Shown here: piece after piece, positions 1-21,432 of the stretch | How positions within the stretch are numbered: position 1 is the first letter of the stretch | Layout of the letters: the number at the start of each line of letters is the position of its first letter | IMG/VR virus record: IMGVR_UViG_3300008262_000671 | Span: 1-26,557 of that record | Origin: a virus | DNA length: 26,557 nucleotides | Strand: one strand, 5' to 3' | Made by a program: the position numbers and the translations under genes | Notes under the pieces: generated by a model | Databases searched by the model: none | Told to the model about the DNA's origin: nothing | Seen by the model: only the letters and a program-made list of their open reading frames with translations

Positions 1-2892
1 TCCGCCGAGCTCATCGGCGAGTTGAATTGAGCATTCTTGGAAAGCTGGCTTCGGCACCAAAGTCACAGCCATGACTCGTGCTTTCTTGATCTTTATTTTA
101 CCGCTTTCTACCTTAGTGTCAGAGCCTTCTTTGACCTCTTGCACTTCTTCGTCACCCTCAAATTGATCGAGATCTGCCGAAACTCCACGAATGAAACCAC
201 CACGAACTAATCGTTCAGCTTCTTGTCCATATGAACCCTTATCAAAATAACCACGGGCATTTCCAATACCACCGTCCGTGCGATCCATTTCAACAATTTT
301 GCCTACTACGACAGAACCATTATGGCCTTCTCCCGTTTGAATTTGCCATAAAAGTGGAAGCGGAAGTTCTCTTACAGAAAGAGCTCCCTTGTTAATAATT
401 CTTCCATCTCCAGACTCGACTTCTTCAGGGATAACAAGGGGGATGAAGAACTCTGATCCGTCTTGACTTTCTATATCTCCACCAGCAGTCATAACTCTGG
501 CTCTAGCGTCCGCTGCTTTAGCACGCATAGCAAAAGTGCTCAGAAGTTCATCATAATCACGCAAAGTATTGACATTAAAAGAACCCATTTCTTGGTTCTT
601 CTTATCTCCTGGCCAGTAGCCATTCATCTCTTTGTGACGAAGAGCGCAGTAGCCCTTAGCACGAGGACCCATGTACTTTGCAAGTTGCTTGTAGCAGCGA
701 GTCCAATCTCCTGGAGTCTTCCAACGAATCTTGGCTGCACCCTTGCCATAGGTCCAATAACGACGAAGCTTCTCTGCTTGTCCACGGTTACGATCTAAAC
801 CACCAGCGGCAGTGATTGCTTTATTGTCAATTTGTTCTATAACATCAAGCAAAGTTGCGTCATCTAAAACAATAACTGGAGGTGGAGTAGCACTCTTAAG
901 GTCCATCAAAACTTGTGGGTCATGTACCCATTGGCCCTTTTTTCTACTATAAGTAGTAGGCTCAATTGTGTTCTTTGTAGCTGGGTGTAGGGCTACTAAA
1001 TCCATAACTGCTTGAGGATCATCTGGTGAAACAATTGCCATATGAATAATTGCAACATCTGAAGTCTCTGGAGTTAGCATCTTATCTTCTGCAGAAGCTT
1101 TTAAAGCTCTTCCTTTAGAATCTAACCAAGGACTGTCAATTCCTTTTTCTTCAACATATTTTTTATTCTTAGCTGGATCCATAAATGGAGGAGCTGTTCT
1201 TCTTCCAGTTTTATCTCCAGCTAACCAATCCTTAAGATTTGCAACATTGTAGGCATTGACTGCTTTCATCTCTGCGCCACTCTTCAGTTGAGGATAATAC
1301 TTTGCTAAAGGGTTTTCAGATCTAGCTGGTGCTTTTGGTTGGCTAGGTGTTGTTCCAGTTCCTGAACCAGAAGGTTGATTAGAAGATACTGGAGAAACAT
1401 CTGGCGAAAGTCTTTGCTCTGATACCCACTGAGGGTAATTTGTAAGCATTAAATTAAGATTTGCTGCATTAAGTGGAGGAAGAGTTCCTGGCATACGAAC
1501 AGGAGAATCCATAGGAGTACGAGGCTCACCAAGAATTCCAGAAGTATCTAACTCCCCTTCTGCAACAGCAGTAGGGATTGGAGTGTATGACTCTAAAGGT
1601 TCTGTCATTGTTGCAGGAACATCTACTGTATTTCCGTTATTAAGCTCTACCTTAACAGTCTGTGTAGCTGCATCCATCGAACGAATATTTCCTTGGTATT
1701 TTGCATTACCACCAATTACTACACGTCCACCCATCTTTGCAAATTTTCCTGATTTATCCCGCAATTGAACATTTGCTCGTGCTGCTTTATCTGCAGGAGT
1801 ATCAATTCCGTCACCTTTACCTGATGTTGCACCTTCTCCAGCAGCAGTAAGGCTGTCGTCAAAGAAATCCCAAGAGTCAGACATCTCATCTTGAAGAGCT
1901 ACATCATCTAACAATTCCCAATCAAGATCGGGTGATGCTTCTTCATACATCTTGCTTTCTTCTGGATAAATCTTATCTACCTTATGTGCAATAAAAGGTT
2001 CGTTGTCAAGAAGTGCTGCAATAAAAAGTGCAGTTTCTGTGTCTACTGGAACATGTCCGCAAGGAGTTCCATCATTAGGGTCATCAAGAACTTTGTCGTA
2101 CATAGACATGTCAGCGTCTGGCATACCCATGTCATCCCAGTCACCATCGTCCCAGACATAGATGTGACCAGCTGGCTCAATTCTATAAAGTCGATCAATA
2201 CCAGATCCATCTAAACGAATGCGAGCAAAGAATTCAATAACATTGTCCTCAGGCATCGTCTTTGAAACAATAAAAGAATCGTAGTTAACTCTCTTTGGCA
2301 TCTCATAATCCATAGGATCTAGACCACCAGCAATGATTGAATTTGACTTAGCTTTTTTATTTTCACGTTCTACTATTGCAGACGCCCATGAACGAGCAGC
2401 ATCTCCACCCCAAAGAGCCCACGCAATTCGGCCATTTGATGGATAATTTTTTTGTCCTGGCTTGTAACCAGTTCCTTTTTTATCTACTTCGTGACGTGGA
2501 AAATATTTTGCAATATGTCGAAGTTTTTTGATACCGATTTGTCCGCCACGAGCAAGTGTGCGGGCAGTGTTAAGACCTACAGATGTACCGCCACGGTTTT
2601 CTTCCTTGCGCCACTCTAGACCACGCTTTGCTTCAGCAACTACTGAGTCTGGAATTGTGTACATACGATCATTGTTTGAAAAAACTTTAATATCTAAATC
2701 TGTAAGAGCTGCTGCTGCAAGCTCTACTGCAGTTCCAGTAGGTCTATCGGATTCACTGTCCCAGTAGGTAGCTGCAATCAAAGGCTCTTTAAGATCTAAC
2801 TCAAGAACAACATTTTGAAATTCGTCTACGACTGTGCCTAGAGTTTCAGAGACAAAAAGTACCTTAGACCCATTACGGCCAATATAGTCCAT
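1..2892 (-). CDS. Prohead protease polyprotein, C-terminal protease domain (3' end outside window)
   Basis: An open frame of 964 codons runs off the left edge with no stop. The ATG at 2892 overlaps the stop of the upstream gene (TAATG), implying translational coupling. Residues about 95-180 hold a conserved phage segment (HEVDKKGTGYKPG, then GRIAWALWGGD). About 385-430 is a small beta/SH3-like module. About 690-770 holds the RYWTYGKGAAKIRW and KGYCALRHKEMNGYWPGD motifs common in actinophage head proteins. From about 813 onward it resembles the HK97-type prohead protease (S78/U35 family): H857 in GHNGSVVVG and S905 in RGVSADL, 48 residues apart, close to the HK97 His-Ser spacing. The protease would cleave scaffold and head proteins during capsid maturation. 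An ~800-residue N-terminal extension is far longer than a normal protease of about 200 residues. Protease call fairly sure; the role of the N-terminal part is unknown. Confidence 0.75.
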   Translation of the reverse strand, partial: MDYIGRNGSKVLFVSETLGTVVDEFQNVVLELDLKEPLIAATYWDSESDRPTGTAVELAAAALTDLDIKVFSNNDRMYTIPDSVVAEAKRGLEWRKEENRGGTSVGLNTARTLARGGQIGIKKLRHIAKYFPRHEVDKKGTGYKPGQKNYPSNGRIAWALWGGDAARSWASAIVERENKKAKSNSIIAGGLDPMDYEMPKRVNYDSFIVSKTMPEDNVIEFFARIRLDGSGIDRLYRIEPAGHIYVWDDGDWDDMGMPDADMSMYDKVLDDPNDGTPCGHVPVDTETALFIAALLDNEPFIAHKVDKIYPEESKMYEEASPDLDWELLDDVALQDEMSDSWDFFDDSLTAAGEGATSGKGDGIDTPADKAARANVQLRDKSGKFAKMGGRVVIGGNAKYQGNIRSMDAATQTVKVELNNGNTVDVPATMTEPLESYTPIPTAVAEGELDTSGILGEPRTPMDSPVRMPGTLPPLNAANLNLMLTNYPQWVSEQRLSPDVSPVSSNQPSGSGTGTTPSQPKAPARSENPLAKYYPQLKSGAEMKAVNAYNVANLKDWLAGDKTGRRTAPPFMDPAKNKKYVEEKGIDSPWLDSKGRALKASAEDKMLTPETSDVAIIHMAIVSPDDPQAVMDLVALHPATKNTIEPTTYSRKKGQWVHDPQVLMDLKSATPPPVIVLDDATLLDVIEQIDNKAITAAGGLDRNRGQAEKLRRYWTYGKGAAKIRWKTPGDWTRCYKQLAKYMGPRAKGYCALRHKEMNGYWPGDKKNQEMGSFNVNTLRDYDELLSTFAMRAKAADARARVMTAGGDIESQDGSEFFIPLVIPEEVESGDGRIINKGALSVRELPLPLLWQIQTGEGHNGSVVVGKIVEMDRTDGGIGNARGYFDKGSYGQEAERLVRGGFIRGVSADLDQFEGDEEVQEVKEGSDTKVESGKIKIKKARVMAVTLVPKPAFQECSIQLADELGG

Positions 2893-3599
2893 TACTTGCT
2901 CTCCTCTGTTACTGGTCCACCAGCGACCCATGCACGACATGTGCGGGATGCAGCGCATTTAAAGTCGAATGCTTCACAATACCCTAAATCTCCAGCCTCG
3001 ATTGAGCCCCAAGCATCATTTCCTTCTTCATTGCCAAGCCCAGAAGCTATGCAATCAAGCATCTTTGGAGTCTGAATAAATACAGCACAATTGCCACAAA
3101 GTTGCTTCTTTGCAGTCTCTTTATCTACTGACCATTCGTCAGCAATCGCTTCCCAATACTCATCGTTAGGCTCTAGAGGGTTAAGAGGTCCATACATAGC
3201 GGTGTCAATAGCGTTCTTACGATTATCAAGGTTAGTACCGATATCTTGGGTTGCAGGAGGACATCCTTCAGATGTCTCTACAGCAGCAGTAATAGCTTTC
3301 TTTAATTTATAGTCAACTCTATATTTTTCTACATCTTTATATGTAAGATATTTACCAGCAGCTGTTGCTTTTTCAAACATCTCACGAACAACTTTATAGT
3401 CAGCTGGCTCTATGTAAATAAAAGACTTTCCATCAAGACTTACATCGCCTTCTGCATATGAACGCCACTTACCATCTATAAGAGTACGAATTCCAAATTT
3501 TTCACTATAAAAAACACATTGTTTTACAATGTCATCGCCTTTTAGATATGCAAGAGCCATACCTTCTTCAGGATAGGACTTAACCACTACGGTTTTCAT
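2892..3599 (-). CDS. Conserved Cys-rich head-operon protein, 235 aa
   Basis: The ATG at 3599 overlaps the stop of the preceding small gene (ATGA) and follows a good ribosome site (GGAAGAGGAT). Residues 1-110 are mixed alpha/beta with no recognised fold. A linker near residue 105 reads KKAITAAVETSEG. The C-terminal ~70 residues carry six cysteines: CGNC, then C-x-A-SGLG, then GYCEAFDFKCAASRTC followed by RAWVAGGP. This spacing recalls the small Cys-rich, HiPIP-like (iron-sulfur or zinc) domains seen in phage structural operons. Metal binding is inferred from spacing only. The gene lies between the polyvalent protein and the protease, so a virion or head-assembly role is likely but unproven. 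Confidence 0.6.
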   Translation of the reverse strand: MKTVVVKSYPEEGMALAYLKGDDIVKQCVFYSEKFGIRTLIDGKWRSYAEGDVSLDGKSFIYIEPADYKVVREMFEKATAAGKYLTYKDVEKYRVDYKLKKAITAAVETSEGCPPATQDIGTNLDNRKNAIDTAMYGPLNPLEPNDEYWEAIADEWSVDKETAKKQLCGNCAVFIQTPKMLDCIASGLGNEEGNDAWGSIEAGDLGYCEAFDFKCAASRTCRAWVAGGPVTEESK

Positions 3600-3829: not shown

Positions 3830-6800
3830 TCAGGGATTGATAACACCTGTCTCTCCTTTCATTTCTCCAATAGCTAATCCTAATAGATTAGCTTCTTTTT
3901 GGAAACCCTCTTGTCGTAGAAGTGTTAAGAAGGTTTGATGCCAATTATTATTATGGCCTCCTCCAGTATTGGACTTCCATCCAGCTTCCATAAGGTGAGC
4001 AATTTCGTGTAGCAAAGCTATCTTAGAAATTCCTCTCTTCCTAACTAGAACTACAGGGAATTCAACGCCCTTTAAAGGATCTCCATCTGCAAATGCTGCG
4101 CTATTTGCAAGACCTACACCAGCTTCGACACCTGAACCACCCTTTCTAGGGTCTTGTCCAAGCATTTCATCAGCTACAGAACCTCCAGCTAAGTAGAATA
4201 GTTTGTTTCCATATCCATACTTTTTTAATGTATCAGAAATGTATTTACCGATTTCATTTCTATCTTTTATTAGTTCTTGTCCATCTAGAATTCTTGAAGC
4301 AAATATCCCGTGTGCTTGTTCTAGTGGAGCATTACTTGATCCTTCATCTGAAGTACGATCATATGTGATGTCGTCCCACAAATCGTATTCTTCACCATCA
4401 ATAGTAATTTTTGTAGATTCTACAGATGTATTTTTATTTTTTGGAGCTTTTGAAGCAATCTCTTCTCCAGTCTGCCCCTGCTCACCAACATTTGGTTCAG
4501 GAGTTACTTCTGGAGTTGTAGGAGCTTGCTCAGCAATTTGCTCTCCAGTTTGACCTTCGCTACCAACACCTTCACCAGCTTGTGGAGTTTCTTGATTATC
4601 GTTATCTCCTGGCTTTATACCTAGCATCCAGTTAACTGCATCTTGAGCTTGCTTTGCAGCAACAATAATCATTCCTGGGTCATCCTGAAGAGGCTTCAAC
4701 CAGCCTTGTGCATATGAAGCTGTGTTGCCCCAGTCAATCTCTACACCAAACTCTGCAGCAATAAGAGCGACAGTAATTTCTGCAATAAGCTCTTCTTCAC
4801 CGCGGCTTGCTCTGTGATCTCCATAATTATCTTGAAGATCTTTGCGCTTTCCTTCTTTACCTAAACGTGAAATATGTCCTGTACTGTGACCTAGTTCGTG
4901 GAAAAGAGTTTCAATAAAGGTTTGACTAGTATCAAATTGCTCTCTTAAAGGTAAGTAAATTTTATCCTCGGAAGGACGATAGAAAGCTCCATCCTGAGGC
5001 CTGTAAATAATTTCTGGATGGTCTTTGTATGACTCTAGTATTTTAGTTTCAATATCTAGTACAGGAACTGGGTCTTTCTTTACTAGAGGTGGAAGATCTA
5101 GTTTCTCAAACTGAGAAACGTTAAAGACTGAGATTTCAGTAAAGTAAATGTAGCCTTCTTTTTTAATACTTCCATCTGGCTGCTTTACTTCTTTAGTAAC
5201 AACGTTAGGCTTTAGAATCTTTGTTCCAGTTTCGCCTTTTCGAACATAACCACCTAAAGCTTTACCTTGGTTAAAGGTTAAGAATCTAGGGTCTGTCCAA
5301 TCATTTAAATGCATTGCTGCCCAAAGAGCTAGCGTGTTAGTTCCTTGATAAGCCTTGTTTGATTTTGCATTTGTTGGAAGGAAGCCTCCACCAGACCATC
5401 CCTTAGTCCAAGGGACAACTCCTTGCTTCATAAGATCAATAAGTCTGTTAGCTACTTCTAAAGTTTTCTGGTCAGTAATCTTTCTAGCCTTGACAACTTC
5501 AGTGCCAATTTCCTCAGGAGTTACAGGATCTGGATCTGGGTTTACTGTCATACCTAGAAGTTTTTCAACTTCAGTTAACTCTGCCTTTTCATCCTCTTCC
5601 GATGTAACGTCATAGACCCACTTTAAGCTGTCTCCTATGTCTATAGCTTTCTTTGCACGAGTAGCTGCAACATAAGAAATTCTACGTTCTTCTGGGCTTG
5701 GAAGCTCCATCTCTCCTTCATCATTGATTTCAGGTTCTTTAAAGTCATCCCAAAGAAGAACACGGTCCCATTCTTTGCCCTTTGACTTGTGTGCAGTGAT
5801 TACTTCAGAATCAATAGGGATTCTTGGAGCGTAGTTTTGTACCCATCTTCTAACATCATTAATTAGAGTGAGCATCTCTTCTTCTTGACCTTTTTGGAAA
5901 GCTACAGCTGGAACTTTGTATGTTCCCAGTGTTCCATCTTTCTTTGTGTACTCTCTATCAACATAGGTTACTTCTTTTAGAAGAAAATCTTGATATGACT
6001 TTGCATTTTCAAACTCGATGAAGCCGTCTTTTACAGTGTAAGTTAGGTCTCCAAGGTAGCCAGAATTGAGCTTGCCTTTACCTAGTTTGCCTGTGGTGCC
6101 TACCTTAACGGCATCCATTCCAAGTGGGACATACTCGTCTGTTCTAAATCCAGTTCCACGAATTGGAGTGATACTGTTGAGCTTATCTACTAAATCTTTT
6201 ACAGACATTCTTCTGTCTCTAAGTAGACGAACCATGTACATGGCACCGCCAACAGACTTACCGTCTTGTACTGCCTTTAATACTTCATTCCAGTTATTAA
6301 ATCCAGCTAAATCTTCATGGATCTTTGGCTTTTTATATGCAGGTGTTCCCTTGTTAGCAGCCATCAACCACTGAGCTGATCTTGCATATGATAAAGCTTT
6401 GTAATACGTTTCTAAGTTAAGTCCAGGATTCTTACCTTTAGCAAGCATGTCAAATACAGCGTCAATAACTCCGCCATTTGTTCTTGCAATAATTGCATCT
6501 GGGTCTTGCATATTATCGACAATTTCGCCATCATCTTCGCCTGGCTTGCCAACAATCTTTTTCTTAGATCCAAGAGTTGTCAAGAACCTGTTTCCTATTC
6601 CAGCAAGTATGTCGCCAAAACGGAAAGTTTGAGTTAGGTAAAGTTCTACTGCATCTCTAATATTATTAAGTTCGTCAACAGCTCCACGGAATGCATAGAT
6701 AGCTTGATTACTATCTCCAACATATACTCTTTGAATACCCTTTTGGTTAGCTAGAAGCTTAACAATTACTGGGTTCATGTCCTGTGCTTCATCAAAGAAG

Positions 6801-9800
6801 AACAGGTCATTCTTTCTTCCCTTGAATGGCTTCGTACTAGTTGATCCAGAATTTAGCCCGTCTGCAAATTGAGGATTTGTAAGTGCCCATGCTTTAAGCA
6901 TGTCGGAGTAGTCGATTCGAGATAGCTTTTTAGATGTAGGATCCCATCCTTCTGTAGTGCTTACATCTGTCCACATTCTTTGTGCATAATCCAACAAAAC
7001 CTTTGGAACTGTGTCAAAGAATGGAGCTGGCTTTTTGAAGTGCTTCTCAGTTAAAGTTTCGTCTCCAGATATTGCAAATCTATTAATAACCTCTCTCAAC
7101 TCTTGTACAAGTTCGTTTCTTCCTAGAGTGGTTTCTGTTCCTCTAATCATTACAGTGATTGGTTCAAATTTGTAGTAGTCAAATAGATTTACATTGTCTG
7201 TGAAATCAATAAGAGATCTTTCACCAATTTTAGGCTTATCGTTAAGTTTATTTCTATCTTTATAGTCAGAAGGAAGCATGGAGTAGACAATGTTGTCCAT
7301 AGTTCTAGAGTCTACGTTTTCTGGCATTCTGCCTTGAGCTTCTTCTGCCGTTTCCTTATTAAACACGATATAAAGAAGATTGCTCTTTGGTCTTTCAGCC
7401 AAAATTCTCTTTGCTGCTAGAACTAAAGTAGATGTCTTTCCAGTTCCAGCAAGAGCTTGAACTACAACATCTTTTCCAGTCATAATTGCGTCAACAATGC
7501 TGCGTTGTTCTTTTGTTGGAGGGAACTTAGAAATATTGTTATAGTCAAAAGAGCTTTCTGATTCGCCTAGAAGAGTTCCATTTCCATAGTTGTCTTCATC
7601 TGTTCCTTCATTGTCTTCTGGCTCCTGAACAACAATCATTGCGCTGATGTTCGTTACTGGATTTTCAAAGCTCTGTAGAACTTTCTGAACATCTAGAGAG
7701 AACTGAGTTTTATCTTCTTCTCTCTTCCAGATAATCGATCCATCTGGTTTGATGGTTGCAATAGGTTGATTTCTTAAGAACTTACCGTCTTTACCTGCTC
7801 TAAATACAATTAAATCATCTTCAGAATCTATGTTTAATTCTTTTGAAGATTTTTCTAGCTCTTTAACGGTAGGCTTATCGAATGCAAAATTTACATCAAA
7901 TAGTTCTCCAGTTTTAAGACTTGGAACGGAATTAAGTGTTCCACCTACTACTGGAAGGTTTTCTTTAAGTTTGTTGACGACATTTTCAGATGTCTTTACA
8001 AAATTAACTTCCTTAGACTGTGCCTCACGAGCTAACTGAGCGTCTGCAATTTTCTGTGCAAGCTCTTCTGGAGTCAATTCATACTCAACAGAAGAGTCTG
8101 TGCGAAGATCTCTAATCTTTTGAGCAATCTCTGCTACTGATTTGTCATCTACTACTGGTTTGCTAATTGACCCAGCTTCTGGTGCAGAGTAGATAATTGA
8201 AAGATTCTTAGAAGCTACAGGCTCTCTTTCTCCTGTATCTTCATATCTAACCTTCACATAGTTTGTGTACTTTTTATTGTACTTATCGAGAAGAACGCTT
8301 ACAAAGCCAACACGCTTGGTCTTAGCGTGAATAACTTTATCTCCTGGCTTGACTGGAGTTACTCCGTCTGCAGAAATGTGGAATGGAGAACCGCCGACGA
8401 TTAAATCAGATGCAGGTGCTTCAGGCTCAGCTATTACCTGCTCTTTTACAGTTTCATCTACGTTAAGACCCTTTACAGCTTCTTCAATAGATGAGTCTGG
8501 CTTAGAAGTTGTGATTACATCAATTGCATCATTTACAACTGTCTCGGCTTGCTCTGGAGTTACTTCCTCGCCTTTAACTGGCTTCTCTTCAGGAATGAGT
8601 ACAGGCTCAACATCTTCAATAGCCTCTATTGTTTCTGTTTCTATCTGAGCATTACTCTTATCAGCATTATCTTTTCTACGATAAGCTCCGCCTTCTAGTT
8701 TCTTGTTCAAGAACCAGCCAGTGCCACCATCTTCTCTTGGTGTCTGTCTTTCTGAAAGAGTCTGACCGTTATTTAGATTTACTCTTATTACTCTTACAAA
8801 ATCTGATGGACGTGCTTCATCGTCTTCAAACTTAATAACTTCTAAAAGCTCTCCAACAGAGCCAAAAATAAAGTCGCCAATCTTTAGATCTTTAACTCTT
8901 GGATTAGGAATAAAGTCTGTATTTTCTGGATCTTTTACCCAGTCTTCGTTAATTGTGTCGTTATATAGAGGGGAAATGTAAACTTTAGGTTCGTCTGCAG
9001 ACTCTTCACCATCAACAATAGTAACGTTCTCTTCTTCGACAGATTTAATGTCTTCAATTATTGAATCAAGGTCTGTACCTTCAGATTTTCCATCAACTAT
9101 GTCTGAAGCAATCTTATCTGCTTCTCTCTTAGTCTTTACTTGCTTCTGGCTGGCTAGAGACTCCATCCACTTCTTAAATTCGTTTGCGTAAGCTACAGTT
9201 CCGCCAATAGGTAGATCTCCAGCCTTAACATTTTCAAGAAGCTTTCTTAATACCTTTTCTGTAACTTCTACATCAAATAATGCATTATGGAAACCAGAAG
9301 AGTTAACTTCTATTCCTAAACGCTTTGCTAGTTGGTTAAGAGCGTTAGAAGGGGCTGCCCATCTTCCCTTTCCATTTTTATCTAGAGTCCATGTCCAAGG
9401 ATTTCCTGCAGAAGAAAAGGCTTGATCTCCTTCTTTTGGATTTTCAGGGAACTCAACTGTAGAACGTTCAATATTTTGTAGAATCTTTGCAATTCCTAAA
9501 GTATCAACAGCAGAGGTTAGTTTGAAATCTATGTCTAACTTTTGAGCCCAGCGTTGAAGAACATTTATATCAAAATCAACATTTTGACCAACAAGAATTG
9601 GCTTATCCCCAAAGAAATCTACAAGCTTTTGTAGTTGTTCCTTAAGATCAGGTTGTGTAGCTAACCACTCGTCTGTTATAGGGTTTCCTTCAGCATCAAG
9701 CATGCGATTAGCTTTAAGAACTCTATTACCAGATTCATCAGTTTCATAGTAATAACTACCTAGAGGCTGTCCAGGATTGATGTAAATATTAAGCTCATCT

Positions 9801-12475
9801 ACTTTCTTGCCATCAACATACTTAACTGCTGCAGCTTGGATAGGAGCATCTGGGTTTAATACATTCTGTACATCGTTTCCTAAGGTTTCAAAATCAAAGA
9901 CGATGAATCCCTTTTCATCTAAAGCTTTTTGGATAGAAGCTCCGTCGGCATCGTTGTCTAGAAGTAGCTCTACAAAACCATAGAATGGAGGTAGCTTTGG
10001 CTTTGATACCTTAGACATTGGAGACTCGGCATTAAACTTGTAGCCTTGATCGGCTAGGGCAATCTTTGCTTGACGCTCTTTCTCAAGCTGTCCGTAGTTA
10101 GGAAGAGATTTGTCTGGTCTATCTAGAGGCTCTTTATCTCCAGCCTGTGGAAGATTTGTTTCTCCACGAATTACATCAATAGATGTACCAGAACGCCATT
10201 CCTTAGTTTGTGTCTGGTGACCTACATAGTGACCTTCGATAGTTGTGACGCCGTCTACAGTTCCTACAACCTTAGTTACTGTAAAGAATTCTCTTGCTCC
10301 AAATTTATTAAATCTAAATGCAATATCTCCAACTTGAATTTCAGATGCAGGAATGTTTGTAGCGTATACAGGGTTTGAAGGAGCTTCTGGTGAAGTCTTA
10401 GGTGCTTCCCACATATTCTGTCTGCGAATACGCTCTTCGTCATACTTTGCATAATCCTCTAAGAACTGAGCTTCTAGCTCTGCGTTCTTAGGTGCGTAAA
10501 GAGTTCTATCCTTAAATCTAACTTTTCTCTGATTAGGGAATGCATATTCTGAACCATAATCTTCTGCCTTTGGCTGATTTAGTTCTGGAAGATCTCCCTT
10601 TGCTGGAGGAGTTGCTCCACGATATAGATCTGTTGCGTAATTCTCTGACCAAAGCTTGCTTGACTGCTCAACAGAGTTTGGATAATAACCAGTGATTCTG
10701 TACGCAGGAATTTCTTGAGTTTGTCCACCTACATTTACCTTCTTTGTGCCTTCACGCTCAACCTTGGTAATTGTGAAGTGGCCGTCTACAAGAACGTCGC
10801 CAGGCTTTAGCTGGTCTGTAGTTACACCTTTTAGAAGCTTAGGTGCTTGCTGTGCAGGAGTAGAGTCTTTTGTTGGTTCAGGCTTTGGAGCTTCATCTGG
10901 TGTAGAAAGAACTATTTCATCAATACGACTAGTTAATTCATCTAACGCATCCTTGAGAGCCTTCTTTTCTTCTGGCTTTACTTCATCAGAAAGATCTGCC
11001 TCATCAATTGCATCTTGAATCTTGCGACGCTCTGCTACAAGCTCTTTAAGAACCTTCTTCTTATCTCCAGAAAGATCTGTAGGCTTTTCCTTTTCAGACT
11101 TTTCTTTTTCTTCCTTTTCAGCTTCCTCTATAAGCTTGTCTTCACGTTCTCTCTTTTTCTTTGCACGAATTTCTTTGAGCTTGCGTTGTCTTTCAGCTTC
11201 AGCTACTTCTTCTTCTGTAGGAAGAACTTCTTCAGCAGCAGGAGCTGGCTCTTCCTGAGGTGTTTCTTCAGGTGCAGTAACAACTACCTCTTGCTCTGGT
11301 TCTTCTGGCTTGTCTGGAAGGTTCTTAATAAATTCCCAACCAAGCTCAGCGTTAACTGCACGGCTAATATCTTCTAGCTCTTCTGTTGTCATACTATCTA
11401 GATCGAAGAGCATAGCCTTAACAGCTCTGCGCTCTGCAAAGTCTAAGTCAAAAGATCCAGGACCAAAGTTAGAGTCGATAATCTTAATGAGCATCTGTTG
11501 ACGATGCTTCTTTTCTTTCTTTAGAGCTTTTCTCTCTGCTCTTGTAAGTTTTCTTCTTTGTTGAACTCTGTCAATAAAGTCATCAACAGTAGGTGCAGGT
11601 TTTTCTTCGTCCAGTACGCTATCGATAATTACTTCATCAACTAAATCTGAGTCATCATCGTCAGCGACTTCTTCTCCACCAAGGTTTTCAGGGCGAGTAA
11701 ATTCATAGTCGTTCCACCACTCTCCACCGTACTTTTGTACAGGAGTAGGTAGCTTATCTACAATCTCTCCAGTTTTAATGTTTACCCATGAACCATCTTC
11801 TTGTTTAATCCAAACTTGTTTTCTACCCTTAAGATCTTTACTGATAGCTCTAGTTCCAGCAGGTAGTAAATCAATTTCATCTGGCACGCCAGCAATTTGA
11901 TCTCGTATTACTCGTGGGGTTGGTTCTGGAGTAGGGGTTTCTTCTTCAGTCTCTGCCTTTGGCTTATCGACTCCTTCAGGAGCCTCGGTCTGTATTACTA
12001 CCTGCTGACTTGTAGGAGTCTCGTCGCCAGGTATACCTAGTGGATCACGAGTGAATAGTGTTTGGTCAACTTCAGTACCGTCATCATTTAACCAATCTTT
12101 TCTGGTCTTCCATTTACCAGTTTTTGGATAATACGGATTACCATCTGTATATTCAACTGTCCAAATAGATGGTTGATCTTTATCGTCAAATTTTCTTTCT
12201 GATACAGAAGTTACTATTCTCCAGCCAACGCCAGGAATATAAACTTCATCACCAGGCTTAAGATCCTGTGGACGCTTTTTGATGTACTTAGGAGCTTCTT
12301 CAAACTCATCAGGTTCAACACCTAACTTATCCATCATTTCTCTAACGATGTCTTCTCGTTCATTGATGTTTGTAGGAGTGCCGTCTTCTTTAAAACCTAA
12401 AGAATCAAAGAACTCTCGTTCTTCTTTAGTCAACATGCTGCGTGGGATTCTTTGACCACTAAGATCATTCTCCAT
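3830..12475 (-). CDS. Giant polyvalent protein: exonuclease + SF1 helicase + ArdC + two zincins
   Basis: 2,881 residues from the ATG at 12475, but the same frame is open without ATG/GTG/TTG back to 13024 and codes plausibly there, so this is probably the C-terminal part of a larger product. Domains: KPGD-type beta modules near 70, 555, 712, 1197 and 1375; K/E-rich helical stretch 270-555; DEDDh (DnaQ-like) exonuclease with DFET at D861/E863, D969 and H1063/D1068; UvrD/PcrA-type helicase with Walker A GTGKT (K1680), DEAQD at D1895/E1896, GDSNQAIYAFRG, AHKSKGKEWD near 2226 and AATRAKKA near 2270; ArdC N-terminal ssDNA-binding domain about 2335-2470; zincin HELGH at H2526-H2530; Gly/Glu/Pro linker with two near-copies of GQTGEQIAEQAP; and a second zincin HEIAH at H2823-H2827. 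This matches the polyvalent-protein class of phages and conjugative elements, thought to be delivered with the DNA to resist restriction. Catalytic residues look intact. Confidence 0.85.
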   Translation of the reverse strand: MENDLSGQRIPRSMLTKEEREFFDSLGFKEDGTPTNINEREDIVREMMDKLGVEPDEFEEAPKYIKKRPQDLKPGDEVYIPGVGWRIVTSVSERKFDDKDQPSIWTVEYTDGNPYYPKTGKWKTRKDWLNDDGTEVDQTLFTRDPLGIPGDETPTSQQVVIQTEAPEGVDKPKAETEEETPTPEPTPRVIRDQIAGVPDEIDLLPAGTRAISKDLKGRKQVWIKQEDGSWVNIKTGEIVDKLPTPVQKYGGEWWNDYEFTRPENLGGEEVADDDDSDLVDEVIIDSVLDEEKPAPTVDDFIDRVQQRRKLTRAERKALKKEKKHRQQMLIKIIDSNFGPGSFDLDFAERRAVKAMLFDLDSMTTEELEDISRAVNAELGWEFIKNLPDKPEEPEQEVVVTAPEETPQEEPAPAAEEVLPTEEEVAEAERQRKLKEIRAKKKREREDKLIEEAEKEEKEKSEKEKPTDLSGDKKKVLKELVAERRKIQDAIDEADLSDEVKPEEKKALKDALDELTSRIDEIVLSTPDEAPKPEPTKDSTPAQQAPKLLKGVTTDQLKPGDVLVDGHFTITKVEREGTKKVNVGGQTQEIPAYRITGYYPNSVEQSSKLWSENYATDLYRGATPPAKGDLPELNQPKAEDYGSEYAFPNQRKVRFKDRTLYAPKNAELEAQFLEDYAKYDEERIRRQNMWEAPKTSPEAPSNPVYATNIPASEIQVGDIAFRFNKFGAREFFTVTKVVGTVDGVTTIEGHYVGHQTQTKEWRSGTSIDVIRGETNLPQAGDKEPLDRPDKSLPNYGQLEKERQAKIALADQGYKFNAESPMSKVSKPKLPPFYGFVELLLDNDADGASIQKALDEKGFIVFDFETLGNDVQNVLNPDAPIQAAAVKYVDGKKVDELNIYINPGQPLGSYYYETDESGNRVLKANRMLDAEGNPITDEWLATQPDLKEQLQKLVDFFGDKPILVGQNVDFDINVLQRWAQKLDIDFKLTSAVDTLGIAKILQNIERSTVEFPENPKEGDQAFSSAGNPWTWTLDKNGKGRWAAPSNALNQLAKRLGIEVNSSGFHNALFDVEVTEKVLRKLLENVKAGDLPIGGTVAYANEFKKWMESLASQKQVKTKREADKIASDIVDGKSEGTDLDSIIEDIKSVEEENVTIVDGEESADEPKVYISPLYNDTINEDWVKDPENTDFIPNPRVKDLKIGDFIFGSVGELLEVIKFEDDEARPSDFVRVIRVNLNNGQTLSERQTPREDGGTGWFLNKKLEGGAYRRKDNADKSNAQIETETIEAIEDVEPVLIPEEKPVKGEEVTPEQAETVVNDAIDVITTSKPDSSIEEAVKGLNVDETVKEQVIAEPEAPASDLIVGGSPFHISADGVTPVKPGDKVIHAKTKRVGFVSVLLDKYNKKYTNYVKVRYEDTGEREPVASKNLSIIYSAPEAGSISKPVVDDKSVAEIAQKIRDLRTDSSVEYELTPEELAQKIADAQLAREAQSKEVNFVKTSENVVNKLKENLPVVGGTLNSVPSLKTGELFDVNFAFDKPTVKELEKSSKELNIDSEDDLIVFRAGKDGKFLRNQPIATIKPDGSIIWKREEDKTQFSLDVQKVLQSFENPVTNISAMIVVQEPEDNEGTDEDNYGNGTLLGESESSFDYNNISKFPPTKEQRSIVDAIMTGKDVVVQALAGTGKTSTLVLAAKRILAERPKSNLLYIVFNKETAEEAQGRMPENVDSRTMDNIVYSMLPSDYKDRNKLNDKPKIGERSLIDFTDNVNLFDYYKFEPITVMIRGTETTLGRNELVQELREVINRFAISGDETLTEKHFKKPAPFFDTVPKVLLDYAQRMWTDVSTTEGWDPTSKKLSRIDYSDMLKAWALTNPQFADGLNSGSTSTKPFKGRKNDLFFFDEAQDMNPVIVKLLANQKGIQRVYVGDSNQAIYAFRGAVDELNNIRDAVELYLTQTFRFGDILAGIGNRFLTTLGSKKKIVGKPGEDDGEIVDNMQDPDAIIARTNGGVIDAVFDMLAKGKNPGLNLETYYKALSYARSAQWLMAANKGTPAYKKPKIHEDLAGFNNWNEVLKAVQDGKSVGGAMYMVRLLRDRRMSVKDLVDKLNSITPIRGTGFRTDEYVPLGMDAVKVGTTGKLGKGKLNSGYLGDLTYTVKDGFIEFENAKSYQDFLLKEVTYVDREYTKKDGTLGTYKVPAVAFQKGQEEEMLTLINDVRRWVQNYAPRIPIDSEVITAHKSKGKEWDRVLLWDDFKEPEINDEGEMELPSPEERRISYVAATRAKKAIDIGDSLKWVYDVTSEEDEKAELTEVEKLLGMTVNPDPDPVTPEEIGTEVVKARKITDQKTLEVANRLIDLMKQGVVPWTKGWSGGGFLPTNAKSNKAYQGTNTLALWAAMHLNDWTDPRFLTFNQGKALGGYVRKGETGTKILKPNVVTKEVKQPDGSIKKEGYIYFTEISVFNVSQFEKLDLPPLVKKDPVPVLDIETKILESYKDHPEIIYRPQDGAFYRPSEDKIYLPLREQFDTSQTFIETLFHELGHSTGHISRLGKEGKRKDLQDNYGDHRASRGEEELIAEITVALIAAEFGVEIDWGNTASYAQGWLKPLQDDPGMIIVAAKQAQDAVNWMLGIKPGDNDNQETPQAGEGVGSEGQTGEQIAEQAPTTPEVTPEPNVGEQGQTGEEIASKAPKNKNTSVESTKITIDGEEYDLWDDITYDRTSDEGSSNAPLEQAHGIFASRILDGQELIKDRNEIGKYISDTLKKYGYGNKLFYLAGGSVADEMLGQDPRKGGSGVEAGVGLANSAAFADGDPLKGVEFPVVLVRKRGISKIALLHEIAHLMEAGWKSNTGGGHNNNWHQTFLTLLRQEGFQKEANLLGLAIGEMKGETGVINP

Positions 12476-12974
12476 AACTGCTTTGAGAAGACCTTTAAGA
12501 AATTCAGGTGAAAGATTTGGTGTTTTTGGTGCAACTACTTCTTCTTCAGGTTTAGGAGTTTCTGTTTCTGCAGCTGGTGCGTCAAAGTCAATTGGCTCTT
12601 GGGCAGGAGACTTTGCAGTTGCAGGACGAGGTTGTAGGTCTATACCAAAACGATCACGAAGTTCACGAGCAAAAGCCTTAAACTCTTCATCAGTCTGTGT
12701 AGCAGATTCTGAGTTAACTGGAAGAGTTTTTCCATCTCTTTCAATGGTGCCAGTCCACTCGAAACCATTCTCATCAAGGAAGTCAGCAATTTCCTTATCC
12801 TTGAAAGCTCCACCAGCACCAGCACGAAGAAGAGTGCGGTTGCCTGAACGCTTGTAAGTAACTGCCTTTTTAGGTTTTACTTCTTCTTCTTTTGTATCTG
12901 GCTCTACTTCTGGTTCTTCGGAAACTGGAGGCTTTATTTTTGCTTTTGCTTTTCCAGCCTTCTTATTAATCTTT

Positions 12975-13024
12975 TCAATAATTGCATCTGTATGCTTCTG
13001 CTGAAACAGGGGCTCCTGATGTCT
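12975..13024 (-). other. Frame junction between the two halves of the polyvalent gene
   Basis: The 749-aa frame ends at a TGA at 12975, while the downstream frame is open from a TAG at 13025-13027. Only within this ~50-base overlap can ribosomes pass from one to the other, by a +1 shift. Skipping one base after GCA would read PVSAEATDAIIEKINKK, which continues smoothly. An AGGAG lies at 13013-13017, just upstream of CCCCTGTTT, reminiscent of the Shine-Dalgarno-like stimulator of the RF2 +1 frameshift. No shift codon there re-pairs well, so a one-base insertion is an equal or better explanation. Confidence 0.6.
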
Positions 13025-15224
13025 CTAAGTTAGGATCAGATATATCAAGTTCGCCAAACCCTGGTCCTTGAGGTCCAGTTCCTCTAATTGCATCCTCTAA
13101 CTTAGAAGTTAAATCTTTTGTTGTATTATCGTTTGCAAGATTTACAGGGTTATAGAAAGGATATTCTGACTCAACTGCTTTAGGGATTAAATTTTCTGCA
13201 GGATCAACAGGGTTTGGATCTAACTTATAGAGTCCTTCAGGTGTATCCAAATCTGCGTTCTTTGGTAAGAATGGTCGATAGTCGCCATCTTTTTTGTATC
13301 CTGCTAATTCTTCTTCTGAAAGACTTTTAAGTAGAGGAGGTACATACCTTTCTTCACCTTCATCAACAATTTCTGCAATAGGTTCTTCTTCAGAAATTGG
13401 TTTTTTAGATTTAGATTTCTTTGTTTCAGGCTTTAGAATTTCGTCTTCAATAATCTTGTCTGAAGGTGAAGGTTCAATCTCTCCATCTTCAACTGGAGCT
13501 TCTTCAATTACAGGCTCTTTATCTCCTCTAGATTCAAGGAGAGCCTTCTCGTTATTATTATTTCCAGCAACCTTATCATAAGCCTGTGCGAGAGCCATCT
13601 CAGCATCTCCACCCTGCTCACGAATTGCTGCAGCAATAGCTTCTGCTGGGACATCTTGCTCACGACCATCTGTAAAACTTATTGGTGCATATCCTGTTGC
13701 TTTTTCTGTATCGCTAACAGGTTCTACTGCTGTAAGAAGGGCATCTTCTAGCTCTTCTGGCATTTGATCGTTTGCAATTGTTACAGGGTCATCAAAATCA
13801 AACTCTGGAGTGTATTCTTCGTTTGGATTAAATTCATATGCTCTATCTGGAACTTCGTATGGGAATGACGAAGCTTCCTTTTTCTTCTTCTTATCAGCTT
13901 TCTTTTTTGTTGGCTTAAAGATGTCGTCTGCTTGGTCAAGAAGTGGGACATTGTCATCTGCTGTCTGAGGCTCAGGGCGTGTGTACTCACGACCTTCATC
14001 TTCATCAAGATTAGGTTCGTCACGAAGGATTTCGTTGTTAACATCTTTCCAAGACTGAGCAAATGCAAGAGGTGTATTCTTTCCACGACGATAAACTCCG
14101 TAGACTGGCTCTTCAATATCCCAGAACTGCTTACCAGAATCTGGATCTACTTCACCTTTTTTAAGAAGTTTTGGTTCTGGCTTGTCTAGCTCTGCAGCTC
14201 TCTTTTGCCCATCAGAGATGGCAGTCTGTGCAGCCTTAGGATTATCAAACTTAACGATGTCATATTTATCGTCTGTATATTTATTACCCTCATCTTTGCG
14301 ATAAATACTTGGGGCATCTGAAATAACAATGCTGCTTTCTGGAAGCACCTGAGCTCCGTTAGGAACTTCTGCTTCTACTGAAGAGTAACCATCAACTGAG
14401 TCCTTGCTTTTAATAAAAGCTTCAAGACCTTCACCAAGCTTTGTAGGTACTGTTGCAACTTTGCCTTTACCCATTTCAATGTCGACAAGGTTGGGATCAA
14501 ACATGTTCTGGTTGAGTAGCTCTCCAGAAAGGCTTCTTGTTGACCCATCATTTCTCTTTACATAGACACGGAAACCATCTGTAGCTCTTTTACCTAAAGA
14601 TCTTCCCATATTGATCCAGCGCTCAAAGCGGTCTGAAAGCTGCACGGCTTCACGAGCACGACGAGCTGCTGCTGAGTTCTTACCAGCAAAAGGATTTGCA
14701 GCAGCTAGAAGAACTTCAACTGGAACTTGTCCCTGAGGAAGGTTCTCTAGGCGAATCATTGAATACTTATGTTCTGGAGAATCAATAGGAGAAAACATTG
14801 CAGATGCCAAAAGGCTCTTTACTGTTTCATCCTTAATGCGTGGATCATCTAATACCCAACGCATCTGGGCCTCTGCAAGAGCAGATGCTGTCATCGAGTT
14901 CATACGAGTAGATCTTGGGTGTGATGTTGGGAGCAAGTCTGTGTTAAATGCTTCTAAACCAACAACCTTGTTGTACTTAGCAAGTGAGATGTAATTAGAA
15001 AGCTCTGTAAGTGCTTGATGCTTACGGATTGAGAAAGGTAGCCCTCTAGTCTTTTGTAGAGAGCGAGCAAGAACCTTGTATGCAGATCGACGATTTACTC
15101 TACGGCTTGTTGTAGAGAATTCATTTGCTTTTTCAATTAAAAGATTTGCTTCTTGACGAATGAAGCGTGCTTGTTCACGACTGCTATATGCTCTGTAAGA
15201 GCTTACAATAATCTTATTCTGCAT
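12975..15224 (-). CDS. N-terminal part of the giant polyvalent protein, 749 aa
   Basis: The ATG at 15224 overlaps the last 11 bases of the 385-aa gene. Residues 1-90 are basic and helical. Around residue 95 is DLLPTSHPRSTRMNSMTAS, nearly repeated in the neighbouring 385-aa protein. Residues about 130-260 (AAARRAREAVQLSDRFERW, then RVYVKRNDGS) resemble a module I associate with actinophage head-operon proteins. About 400-740 is long, acidic and low-complexity with K-rich patches, so probably a disordered linker. The frame ends with AEAYRCNY-stop where the +1 frame begins, and the amino-acid style changes abruptly only in those last residues. Probably the start of the ~3,800-residue polyvalent product; a separate structural protein is the alternative. 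Confidence 0.7.
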   Translation of the reverse strand: MQNKIIVSSYRAYSSREQARFIRQEANLLIEKANEFSTTSRRVNRRSAYKVLARSLQKTRGLPFSIRKHQALTELSNYISLAKYNKVVGLEAFNTDLLPTSHPRSTRMNSMTASALAEAQMRWVLDDPRIKDETVKSLLASAMFSPIDSPEHKYSMIRLENLPQGQVPVEVLLAAANPFAGKNSAAARRAREAVQLSDRFERWINMGRSLGKRATDGFRVYVKRNDGSTRSLSGELLNQNMFDPNLVDIEMGKGKVATVPTKLGEGLEAFIKSKDSVDGYSSVEAEVPNGAQVLPESSIVISDAPSIYRKDEGNKYTDDKYDIVKFDNPKAAQTAISDGQKRAAELDKPEPKLLKKGEVDPDSGKQFWDIEEPVYGVYRRGKNTPLAFAQSWKDVNNEILRDEPNLDEDEGREYTRPEPQTADDNVPLLDQADDIFKPTKKKADKKKKKEASSFPYEVPDRAYEFNPNEEYTPEFDFDDPVTIANDQMPEELEDALLTAVEPVSDTEKATGYAPISFTDGREQDVPAEAIAAAIREQGGDAEMALAQAYDKVAGNNNNEKALLESRGDKEPVIEEAPVEDGEIEPSPSDKIIEDEILKPETKKSKSKKPISEEEPIAEIVDEGEERYVPPLLKSLSEEELAGYKKDGDYRPFLPKNADLDTPEGLYKLDPNPVDPAENLIPKAVESEYPFYNPVNLANDNTTKDLTSKLEDAIRGTGPQGPGFGELDISDPNLETSGAPVSAEAYRCNY

Positions 15225-16371
15225 CTTCTTCTACCTTTTTTGGAAGAAGGTCTGCGTCTAGGCTCTCGTAGCCAAGAGATGCAAGTAATGATGCTCTTTT
15301 AAATGGACTGTCTCCATTTCTAACTCCACGAAGCCAAGCAGCACGAACTGCATGCTCTGCTTCATAACCAAAACCTGAATACTCTGCCATAGCAAGGATC
15401 GCCTCTTCTGGGGATGAGTAATCCTCTTCAGTTAAAAGGTCAATATTTAATTCTTGCTCATATTTCCACTCACTAGCAAGCTTTGCTAGTTCTTGTGGTG
15501 ATTGGATTTCGTTTCCGAGCTTTTCACCTTCAAGAACTCCGACATCAACGACGCCATCTGGAATAACCGCGAAACGACACTTACCCTCGTCTTCGACTTC
15601 CATGTCGATGATTCTGCATTGGCCATTGCCCATGTATAGAACACATGAAGAGCACTTGACTCCGATTCCCTTGACATCATTTTCTGCTGGTGGTGTGTAT
15701 CCTGCCCAGATTCCTGTGGCATCTTCATTGAACTTTCCATATTTGTCTGCAATCTCGATTAGCGCTTCTGCTAAATCGCTCTCTTCAGGAACCAAACCTG
15801 CTGAAGCTGCAATCGAGTTTGATTTCTTTGTTGAACGTGGGTGACCAGAAGGCAGTAGATCATTATCTGTTGTGTAGGCAGAGTTTGATGGCTTTCCAGA
15901 CTTCAACAATCTTAAAAATGCATTTACACGACCCATAGCCCACTGATTGCGTGTCATACCTGGACGATGTGAGACGCTGTAAGCACCTGCACCTCTGCGA
16001 TAGACAGCTTTAAGCATTCCGAGGGTTGCACGACGACCCTTACCTGCTTTTTCGTTATGAGTTTCAACTTTATTTTTTAAAGACTTCTCTACTGCTGCAG
16101 AAAACTTAACTTTACGAGTTCCTGATGCAGATCCCTTTTTGTTTTTGCTAGAACCTTTAATCTGATCCTTCTTAGGAGCAGGAGTTTGAGAAATTGTTCT
16201 CTTTTTCTTTGCTGCAAACTCTGAATCATCTGAAGCGTCAACAGGTACACAGTTAGGAACCATTTTTCCGTCTTCGCCTTTCTTCATACCAACTTGCTTG
16301 TAGCCTTCCCAGCAAGGATCTCCAGCAGAGACAAGTGAAGTAACTACATTGTCGATTGGCTTATCAGACAT
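15214..16371 (-). CDS. Conserved head-associated protein with HPRST motif and Cys cluster, 385 aa
   Basis: The start overlaps the portal stop (TAATG). Residues about 18-42 hold the PCWEGYKQVGMKKG...PNCVP motif frequent in phage virion operons. About 55-100 is Lys/Ser-rich. About 115-175 holds the RRGAGAYSVSHRPGMTRNQW segment followed by DLLPSGHPRSTKKSNSIAAS. About 235-265 has CSSC, then GQCRIIDMEVEDEGKCRFAVIP, a four-Cys cluster that could bind a metal or iron-sulfur centre. The C-terminal part is acidic and helical, ending DLLPKKVEEDAE. A structural or DNA-contacting role is inferred from position directly after portal and from the basic N-terminal half. No enzymatic motif seen. Confidence 0.6.
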   Translation of the reverse strand: MSDKPIDNVVTSLVSAGDPCWEGYKQVGMKKGEDGKMVPNCVPVDASDDSEFAAKKKRTISQTPAPKKDQIKGSSKNKKGSASGTRKVKFSAAVEKSLKNKVETHNEKAGKGRRATLGMLKAVYRRGAGAYSVSHRPGMTRNQWAMGRVNAFLRLLKSGKPSNSAYTTDNDLLPSGHPRSTKKSNSIAASAGLVPEESDLAEALIEIADKYGKFNEDATGIWAGYTPPAENDVKGIGVKCSSCVLYMGNGQCRIIDMEVEDEGKCRFAVIPDGVVDVGVLEGEKLGNEIQSPQELAKLASEWKYEQELNIDLLTEEDYSSPEEAILAMAEYSGFGYEAEHAVRAAWLRGVRNGDSPFKRASLLASLGYESLDADLLPKKVEEDAE

Positions 16372-17255
16372 TACTGCTCTTGCCCTTCTGCGGGAGCCTC
16401 TGTAGCAATTCCTGCAGCTTCTGCACCTTCACTTGCTGCATCTAGTGCTGCTTGTAGCTCAGGTGGGATAGGTGCAACTGAAGACTGCTGTTGCTGAGAA
16501 CGAACAGTGTTAATAACTTCTGGAGCAACTGCTGAAAGCATTGCTTCTGTAAATTCTGGAGTAAATACACCACGCTCTTGTAGGAGTCTGATTGAAAGTT
16601 CCTTTGGAGTTGGTGCATCTGCATCTGAGAAGCCGTGAGCACGACGCCATGTGTTTGCAGAGACTGCCATACGGTCAAATCCTGCGTCAGCATCTGTTGC
16701 ACGGTCATTACGAGTTGCAATTGCTGATGGGTCATACCAAACGACGATGCGATTTACTTGTGTCTCTTCAAAACCATTTGCGATGAGGTATGGGCGAAGA
16801 TAAACAACTGTTAGAGCATCTGCAATGAGCAACATAAGTGGCTCGATGTGCGCCTTGTAAAGTGATTCATCAATCTGCATTGCATTTGAGTACTTAACAT
16901 TTGCAAGACCTGTTACAACATCCTTTGGAACATCAAGTCCCTGAAGGATGCGCTCTAGAACACGATCTGAACGCTCAGCAAGTGCTGGGTCAAATGAACG
17001 CTCGAACTTAAACTGCTTAATCTTGTCGCCAAGTTCTGCAGGACCACGAATAATAAGTGGGACAACTGCTGATGCGGACTCTTCGTCACGAATCGGAGTT
17101 GTCATCGCATCCATTAGTTGCTCTTCGAACTCATCTTCTGCTTCTTCAGCAGTAAAGTTTGGACCAATGCCATCTTCTGAGTCGTAAGGGAAATCTCCAT
17201 CGCCTTGTGAAGCAACAGAAAGTCCGTCTGGCAAGTAGAGAGCGTGCAGTTGCAC
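16371..17255 (-). CDS. Portal protein, C-terminal part (frame-shifted from N-terminal part)
   Basis: This frame can start at a GTG at 17255, but it looks like the continuation of the portal frame. Its beginning (ALYLPDGLSVAS) is a typical portal segment, followed by an acidic insertion, GPAELGDKIKQFKFERSFDP, DRVLERILQGLDVPKDVVTG and a C-terminal Q/P/A-rich tail. These are features of the phage portal family, the dodecameric ring at the head vertex through which DNA is packaged and ejected. The stop overlaps the start of the 385-aa gene. Separate translation from the GTG is possible, since it overlaps the upstream frame, but a lone portal half would not assemble. See the N-terminal entry for the break. 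Confidence 0.7.
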   Translation of the reverse strand: MQLHALYLPDGLSVASQGDGDFPYDSEDGIGPNFTAEEAEDEFEEQLMDAMTTPIRDEESASAVVPLIIRGPAELGDKIKQFKFERSFDPALAERSDRVLERILQGLDVPKDVVTGLANVKYSNAMQIDESLYKAHIEPLMLLIADALTVVYLRPYLIANGFEETQVNRIVVWYDPSAIATRNDRATDADAGFDRMAVSANTWRRAHGFSDADAPTPKELSIRLLQERGVFTPEFTEAMLSAVAPEVINTVRSQQQQSSVAPIPPELQAALDAASEGAEAAGIATEAPAEGQEQ

Positions 17256-21023: not shown

Positions 21024-21428
21024 TTATGGAAGAACTCCAACACTTTGACCATCAAAGAGATAAGCCAAAACTTCTTCATCAAAGCAACCGCACTCACTAA
21101 GTCCCTTGGACTTTCTAAATGCGTTGATCGCTTCAACTGCTCCTTCACCAAGACGACCAAACTTGTCATTCATTACTGAACTAAAGCCTAAATCATTCAA
21201 CCGCAGTTGAACTGTCTTGACTGACTCAGAATTACCTTCATAAGCATTTACTTTCAAAGCTGAAAGATAAACATACTTTTCAGGGTTGGCTTGAAAAGTT
21301 GGGGCTTTCTTGTCCTTCTTTGGTTCTTCTTTAATCGCTACTGGCTCTGTCTCAACGGCGAGCGCTTGCTCACTAGTTGAAGGCACTAGAGAACCAAGCA
21401 ACGGCATAAGGTTTTCTTGCTCGCTCAT
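21024..21428 (-). CDS. Peptidoglycan-binding domain protein, 134 aa
   Basis: I choose the ATG at 21428 (MSEQENLMPLLG), five bases after the stop of the transglycosylase frame and preceded by AAAAGAAGTGAG. The longer frame to 21494 lies inside that gene. Residues 1-60 are an acidic and then Lys-rich linker. Residues about 70-134 (SVKTVQLRLNDLGF, then GRLGEGAVEAINAFRKSKGL, then DEEVLAYLFDG) match the PG_binding_1 fold that anchors lytic enzymes to the cell wall. No catalytic domain and no signal peptide are present. It probably partners the adjacent transglycosylase, giving a lysin made of two polypeptides. Domain call good; partnership inferred. Confidence 0.75.
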   Translation of the reverse strand: MSEQENLMPLLGSLVPSTSEQALAVETEPVAIKEEPKKDKKAPTFQANPEKYVYLSALKVNAYEGNSESVKTVQLRLNDLGFSSVMNDKFGRLGEGAVEAINAFRKSKGLSECGCFDEEVLAYLFDGQSVGVLP

Positions 21429-21432
21429 AGTC

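Follow-up and report, generated by a model that had tools for sequence, protein, structure and literature searches.

The 26,557-base IMG/VR virus record IMGVR_UViG_3300008262_000671, which we refer to as the window, encodes on its minus strand a giant protein that is, judged by its sequence, a polyvalent protein of the phage type, unusual in its choice of DNA enzymes. It combines several enzymatic domains, a late, virion gene setting and the ArdC-N and MPTase-PolyVal signatures. Domains, signature families and gene setting thus agree with the first-pass annotation of this DNA, which had proposed a polyvalent protein in a head operon. The data as a whole are best explained by a protein that is made with the phage head, packaged and injected, and that protects or establishes the incoming genome, a reading to which we give a slightly better than even chance.

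The main open frame encodes 2881 amino acids (aa) and lies at 3830-12475 (minus strand, as are all window coordinates given below), with an ATG at 12475 and an extension that is open to about 13024 without a start. Along it, Pfam families above cut-off follow one another in the order RNase_T (1.5e-10, best stretch at residues 931-1075), UvrD-helicase (2.9e-18, 1655-1933) with UvrD_C (1.3e-8, 2224-2278), ArdcN (3.8e-24, 2340-2451) and MPTase-PolyVal (9.1e-26, 2493-2609). We delimit a DEDDh 3'-5' exonuclease domain at residues 848-1085 (9221-9934), a UvrD-type superfamily 1A (SF1A) helicase at 1641-2300 (5576-7555), an ArdC-N domain of the single-stranded DNA (ssDNA)-binding type at 2340-2451 (5123-5458, from Pfam), an MPTase-PolyVal zincin with the HELGH motif at 2493-2609 (4649-4999) and a C-terminal HEIAH domain, a probable second zincin, at 2700-2881 (3833-4378, HEIAH at 3995-4009). 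PHROG matches point the same way, to a helicase (2e-72), an anti-restriction protein (PHROG 7245, 7.3e-61) and a polymerase exonuclease subunit (4.4e-23). The expected residues are in place, namely D861, E863, D969, H1063 and D1068 of the exonuclease, AGTGKT at 1676 and FDEAQD at 1894 among the UvrD-type helicase motifs, HELGH at 2526 and HEIAH at 2823, and the named exonuclease, helicase and zincin residues are conserved in all six close members, i.e. the window and five relatives. The intact exonuclease, the UvrD-like helicase and the ArdC domain with HELGH that had been read from the sequence are thereby confirmed. Antirestriction is the predicted function of the ArdC-N and MPTase pair.

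Profiles of both DNA enzymes match proteins of solved structure. The helicase profile fits best F-box DNA helicase 1 (FBH1, 3.6e-43), followed by UvrD, with PcrA and GajB lower, and this kinship to FBH1 and UvrD suggests a 3'-5' polarity. As for the exonuclease profile, its best match is the PolC-type exonuclease 2p1j (5.2e-12), then PolC, with weak matches to DnaQ (0.0015) and DinG (8zef, 0.0061); a match to the avidin chain 2c4i was set aside as spurious. The D, E and D columns are retained wherever the alignment covers them and a loose HxxxxD pattern occurs in 13 of 13 divergent members; the exonuclease of locus L039 has no motif I. A likeness to RecBCD/AddAB, also raised in the first-pass annotation, is ruled out by the Pfam content and by these best solved matches, as the nuclease is of the PolC/DnaQ type and not PD-(D/E)XK, and the helicase is nearest to FBH1. 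No PD-(D/E)XK nuclease family fused to the helicase appears in the Pfam list at E-values up to 1. A defence-system reading was likewise dropped: the 25 listed of 27 PADLOC models matched are UvrD-type (GajB) models, a DEDDh model and one helicase model, and they make up no whole system.

The second zincin had been claimed on its HEIAH motif. The motif stands, being kept in all seven aligned C-terminal domains. For a structural model of moderate quality (predicted local distance difference test, pLDDT, 71.4; predicted template modelling score, pTM, 0.77), Foldseek returned nothing at E-values of 0.001 or below. No curated Pfam family scored above cut-off on this stretch (SprT-like reached E 0.86), and no PDB sequence match was found at E up to 1. 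VIA-align of the model returned mostly metallopeptidases (selecase, Z 4.9; SPRTN 6mdw, 4.6; MATCAP and Wss1, 3.9), which would fit a probable zincin, although values below Z 8 prove little. By eye, three relatives (L002, L003 and L006; P0007, P0008 and P0009) have an insert between the two zincins with a GEGNHR motif, ParB/sulfiredoxin-like; a different insert is found in L005 and none in the window or L004. Barrel-like repeats between the domains, also an idea formed by eye, are not claimed, because the five segments failed to match one another with phmmer.

In the window the gene is in two pieces. The second is a 749-aa open reading frame (ORF) at 12975-15224, whose residues 1-420 (13965-15224) form a conserved N-terminal region with a low-confidence structural model (pLDDT 53.9, pTM 0.33). 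In five close relatives this ORF is the front portion of a single giant gene, whose one frame, of 3613, 3972, 3910, 4009 or 3926 aa, spans both window ORFs. The description of 3830-15224 as one frame thus holds for the gene in the relatives and fails for the window record. The frame breaks at the junction (12975-13024), which is shorter by 32 bases in the window than in the relatives L006 and L002. A programmed frameshift between the two frames was rejected because the gene is unbroken in all five close relatives and these 32 bases are missing from the window. The portal gene (16371-18087) is also found as two overlapping frames, of 294 and 313 aa, and is 20 bases shorter than its counterpart in two relatives; in 12 of 13 loci the portal is one stop-to-stop frame of 565-585 aa, and the thirteenth (L027) ends at a contig edge. 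Since a broken portal is improbable in a live phage, both breaks are likely to be assembly errors. The giant gene is also split in four other contigs (L026, L040/L142, L041/L147 and L144), at differing positions, and neighbouring genes are also broken in L139, L142 and L147.

Selection is evident in all nine segments compared. The median ratio of non-synonymous to synonymous substitution rates (dN/dS), over 15 pairs from six members, lies between 0.07 and 0.26 in these segments (ArdC-N 0.072, MPTase 0.094, helicase 0.107, exonuclease 0.176, second zincin 0.224, remaining segments 0.19-0.26), ratios that are only rough because dS exceeds 1 in several segments. With such values, the frame is under purifying selection and is not a chance frame.

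The position of the gene between portal and protease genes, noted at first pass, was borne out. Upstream, the portal pieces match PHROG 776 (3.7e-59 and 1.4e-39) and are followed by a 385-aa DUF5824 protein (15214-16371). Downstream are a 235-aa slot protein (2892-3599) and a head-protease polyprotein (1-2958, extending past the window end) that matches PHROG 3244 (1.1e-4) and is 47.7% identical to genes annotated as capsid maturation protease in the lake-metagenome phage DSL-LC01; Pfam Peptidase_S78 reaches an E-value of only 0.17 on it. A 72.9-kb relative, G003, has the order portal, 388-aa protein, giant protein, 235-aa protein, 1611-aa protease polyprotein and a 691-aa protein taken as the capsid protein. 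Giant proteins are encoded at the same position in Arthrobacter phage Mimi (gp77, 2709 aa), in DSL-LC01 (3289 aa) and in three phages of Microbacterium, namely Big4 (1756 aa), Cece (1654 aa) and Pumpernickel (2235 aa). The slot therefore recurs in divergent phages with changing cargo, and its named carriers infect actinobacteria.

Viral contigs were scanned with the helicase profile, which gave at least 156 relatives, the best 80 of 156 being used, and with the exonuclease profile, which gave 40 loci. Domain profiles were then run on viral loci and four phage records, and frames of at least 1500 aa matching a profile were tabulated. After removal of rows sharing a 60-base stretch, 36 rows were kept, three of which (L001, L016 and L018) derive from the window or from contigs that are in the table as well. 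The table does not cover Pumpernickel. The N-terminal match of this phage is weak (2e-4). Seventeen of the 36 are flanked by a portal upstream and by the 235-aa protein, a protease or a capsid protein downstream. Sixteen of these carry the N-terminal region and 13 carry the exonuclease; a helicase is present in 11, and ArdC with MPTase in nine. The first three shares are biased upward, since these modules served as queries. Three flanked slots (L151, L152 and L158) have the exonuclease without the helicase and one, that of Mimi, the helicase without the exonuclease. The two are thus not an obligate pair, contrary to the helicase-nuclease machine envisaged at first. The order exonuclease, helicase, ArdC-N, MPTase also holds in two clades, one with an N-terminal region about 56% identical and one with an exonuclease 36-37% identical; in the latter the second zincin has no match. 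So far the exonuclease in the slot comes only from viral contigs; named or deposited phage records gave seven weak partial matches.

Other cargoes also occur. Locus L059 (2987-18553) encodes a single 5188-aa frame with the N-terminal region, exonuclease, helicase and a Nudix domain, in which ART-like and kinase-like stretches were seen by eye, and L155, which lies outside the 17 flanked slots, encodes a related giant protein with a GNAT domain. A second kind of giant protein (L061, L062, L063, L069, L070 and L079) has MPTase ahead of a UvrD-type helicase matched in pieces, with ArdC at E up to 2e-3 in four of the six and a head-protease-like frame downstream of the giant gene in L063 and L069. 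It is tempting to speculate, though with clearly less confidence than for injection and protection, that the slot is a dedicated cargo bay. Its giant proteins would always share a head-targeting N-terminus and nearly always a DEDDh exonuclease, with helicase, ArdC, zincin, Nudix, ART-like or kinase-like modules as additions or exchanges. The exonuclease, rather than the helicase or ArdC, might then be the main virion-delivered effector, acting on genome ends or defence nucleic acids at entry.

One line of evidence on packaging is a motif resembling a head-protease site, [ILVM][TIASVL]A[AGS][ADGNSE]. Compared with shuffled sequences, it is enriched in the protease polyproteins of G003 (10 sites, 1.54 expected), the window (5 in the part present, 0.74 expected) and Big4 (16, 2.15 expected) and in the capsid proteins of Mimi and Big4; in that of G003 it is not (4 against 1.89, P 0.13). 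The window 749-aa ORF has four matches against 0.49 expected, making three separate candidate sites: MTASA (residues 111-115, 14880-14894) and LLAAAN (172-177, 14694-14711), both exploratory, and LLASA (138-142, 14799-14813), the most widely kept of the three. There is no excess in the 2881-aa frame or in 11 control ORFs of G003 (tail, replication and other), and the giant proteins of the five close relatives gave P values of 0.018-0.07. With the motif fixed, further proteins above shuffles were five of five protease polyproteins (P 0.0005-0.0195), the Pumpernickel protein in capsid position and, at 0.05, two of three proteins of the 385-aa type, and none of seven controls (three portals, a tape measure protein, a terminase and two unannotated proteins). 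These tests are not independent, since the motif was chosen with the help of Big4 and Cece, to which Pumpernickel is kin, and there are near copies among the eight giant-protein N-termini examined. The motif supports a head-protease signal in the operon and would do so only weakly for the giant protein; packaging and injection of the latter are what we infer from gene context and, weakly, from these protease-site-like motifs.

How might such a protein work? With about 3,600-4,000 aa when intact, it would be made with the head of a tailed phage probably infecting actinobacteria. Its N-terminal region would take it into the prohead, perhaps with trimming by the head protease, and it would exit the particle with the DNA. 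The zincins may split the protein into separate active parts, or may have host proteins as their targets. After entry, ArdC-N would bind single-stranded DNA and hinder type I restriction, as ArdC opposes HsdRMS (PMC7213743). The helicase, with the 3'-5' polarity that its kinship suggests, and the 3'-5' exonuclease would process strands or ends of the incoming genome that are exposed and favour its establishment. Recipient UvrD is described as helping ssDNA-to-dsDNA (double-stranded DNA) conversion in conjugation (PMC10085688). The exonuclease need not act with the helicase, because the slot can contain either one alone.

Several points weigh against this model. We know of no enzyme activity established for any family member, and no virion proteomics on the giant protein was found. 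The motif was picked by eye from capsid and head proteins; it is not above shuffles over the full length of the DSL-LC01, Mimi, Big4 and Cece giant proteins, only two of eight further giant-protein N-termini (L038 and L149) fall below P 0.05, and there is no site in the N-terminal 300 residues of L059 or in the whole of Pumpernickel gp82. ArdC-N binds ssDNA, yet the window phage presumably injects dsDNA. The ArdC metalloprotease is reported to be dispensable for antirestriction (PMC7213743), and the text of PMC5512222 calls ArdC-N a rare domain among polyvalent proteins of the phage type. On the plasmid side (see below), the Micromonospora gene annotated as ArdC-like gave no match to the ArdC profile, and the Pantoea and Micromonospora plasmids are typed as non-mobilizable by PLSDB.

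Three other explanations were weighed. The giant protein might not be injected and might have a late role in the producing cell, in DNA-end trimming or unwinding during packaging, or in assembly, its place in the operon reflecting timing. We regard this as a real if minority possibility, as the late head operon has overlapping genes, as in a coupled operon, and helicases and exonucleases are generic DNA enzymes. However, G003 keeps DNA polymerase-like and helicase-like ORFs in a separate block (by eye), and the Nudix and by-eye ART-like or kinase-like cargo of L059 and the GNAT domain of L155 fit an entry-phase conflict better than packaging.

Such cargo could also belong to a protein that attacks rather than protects, its exonuclease and helicase breaking down DNA of the host or nucleic acids of its defences and its zincins cutting host proteins. 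The zincins themselves, the by-eye stretches in L059 and the exonuclease in 13 of 17 flanked slots agree with this, but the exonuclease is of the PolC/DnaQ type by profile, and such enzymes usually trim 3' ends of single strands. Moreover, the window protein matched no toxin-like family in Pfam or PHROG, and we find this alternative rather unlikely. That the window phage makes two real proteins, a 749-aa head protein and a 2881-aa enzyme from its own ATG, is very improbable to us. The ATG at 12475, the stop in the upstream frame and the split genes of the four other contigs would be in keeping with it, but all five close relatives have one frame, the window portal is broken too, and the other contigs break at different places, with broken neighbours in some. 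Injection and protection of the incoming genome thus remains the reading that we prefer.

Polyvalent proteins of phages are encoded near virion genes, and virion delivery has been inferred for the class (Iyer et al. 2017, passages of PMC5512222). The window protein resembles them in joining unrelated enzyme domains in one chain, in its ArdC-N and zincin signatures and in adjoining virion genes. The same text reports UvrD in a few actinomycete polyvalent proteins from conjugation-like contexts, including the 12,242-aa OJH72069.1. The window protein cannot, then, be called one of the largest, as had been suggested; frames of 5188 aa, 4804 aa and, on a plasmid, 7109 aa were also found. In the running text of PMC5512222, the word 'exonuclease' is found a single time, within the title of a reference, and neither 'DEDD' nor 'DnaQ' appears. 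No report of this domain combination was found in literature titles, abstracts and passages, mostly from open-access journals and without supplements.

The closest named counterpart is Mimi gp77, annotated 'DNA helicase', in the same slot between portal and capsid protease. Its helicase is 31.8% identical, and a HEFGH was seen by eye near its C-terminus; unlike the window protein, it has no exonuclease or ArdC detectable by profile search. R388 ArdC has the same succession of ArdC-N and MPTase zincin but is stand-alone and needed in the recipient cell (PMC7213743), whereas the window pair is fused to a helicase and an exonuclease. DinG, as a DnaQ-helicase fusion, also has a DEDDh exonuclease and a helicase in one chain; in the window protein about 550 residues lie between these domains, which can also occur independently. 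WRN joins the same two activities, and the helicases of DinG and WRN belong to families other than the UvrD type.

Plasmids provide another comparison. Actinobacterial plasmid UvrD giants (OJH72069.1, as published, Micromonospora WP_328384361.1 and a Kitasatospora 7109-aa frame) share the giant chain and a related SF1A helicase. They differ in their plasmid setting, and of six profiles only that of the helicase matched the Micromonospora and Kitasatospora stretches. A tblastn search of plasmids matched 4710 records, three of which were looked at closely. In Pantoea NZ_CP110472.1, an ArdC-type zincin gene and a UvrD gene have one gene between them; in Micromonospora NZ_CP107937.1, a gene annotated as ArdC-like is followed by one small ORF and a 15,534-base UvrD giant gene; the Kitasatospora stretch has the 7109-aa frame with the helicase. 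The neighbourhood of ArdC-type and UvrD genes on different mobile elements mildly favours a shared role, on the basis of the first two of these plasmids.

The host of the window phage is probably an actinobacterium, given two WhiB-like ORFs in G003 (by eye) and the hosts of its relatives. For DSL-LC01, an actinobacterial host has been predicted (passages of PMC10611076), and isolated freshwater actinophages of about 39 kb are reported to carry WhiB (passages of PMC10202952). Two scans of cellular genome contigs found no relatives, as host or prophage. As for the rest of the window, the gap of about 230 bases after the giant gene contains two small ORFs, read by eye. A 189-aa protein (24850-25419) has a weak proteasome/HslV-type hydrolase likeness (PF00227, E 0.0016, below cut-off), and DSL-LC01 has a gene annotated HslV. 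Peptidoglycan-binding and lysozyme-like pieces lie in two frames at 21024-21657. There are no tRNA genes in the 26,557 bases.

The exonuclease as the most frequent cargo enzyme is not described in the founding polyvalent-protein text, as far as PMC5512222 was compared. How phage genomes are protected and established in the first minutes of infection is little understood except in a handful of model phages. With its conserved place and exchangeable enzyme cargo, the slot, which the cultured phages Mimi, Big4, Cece and Pumpernickel also have, would allow a direct test of entry proteins.

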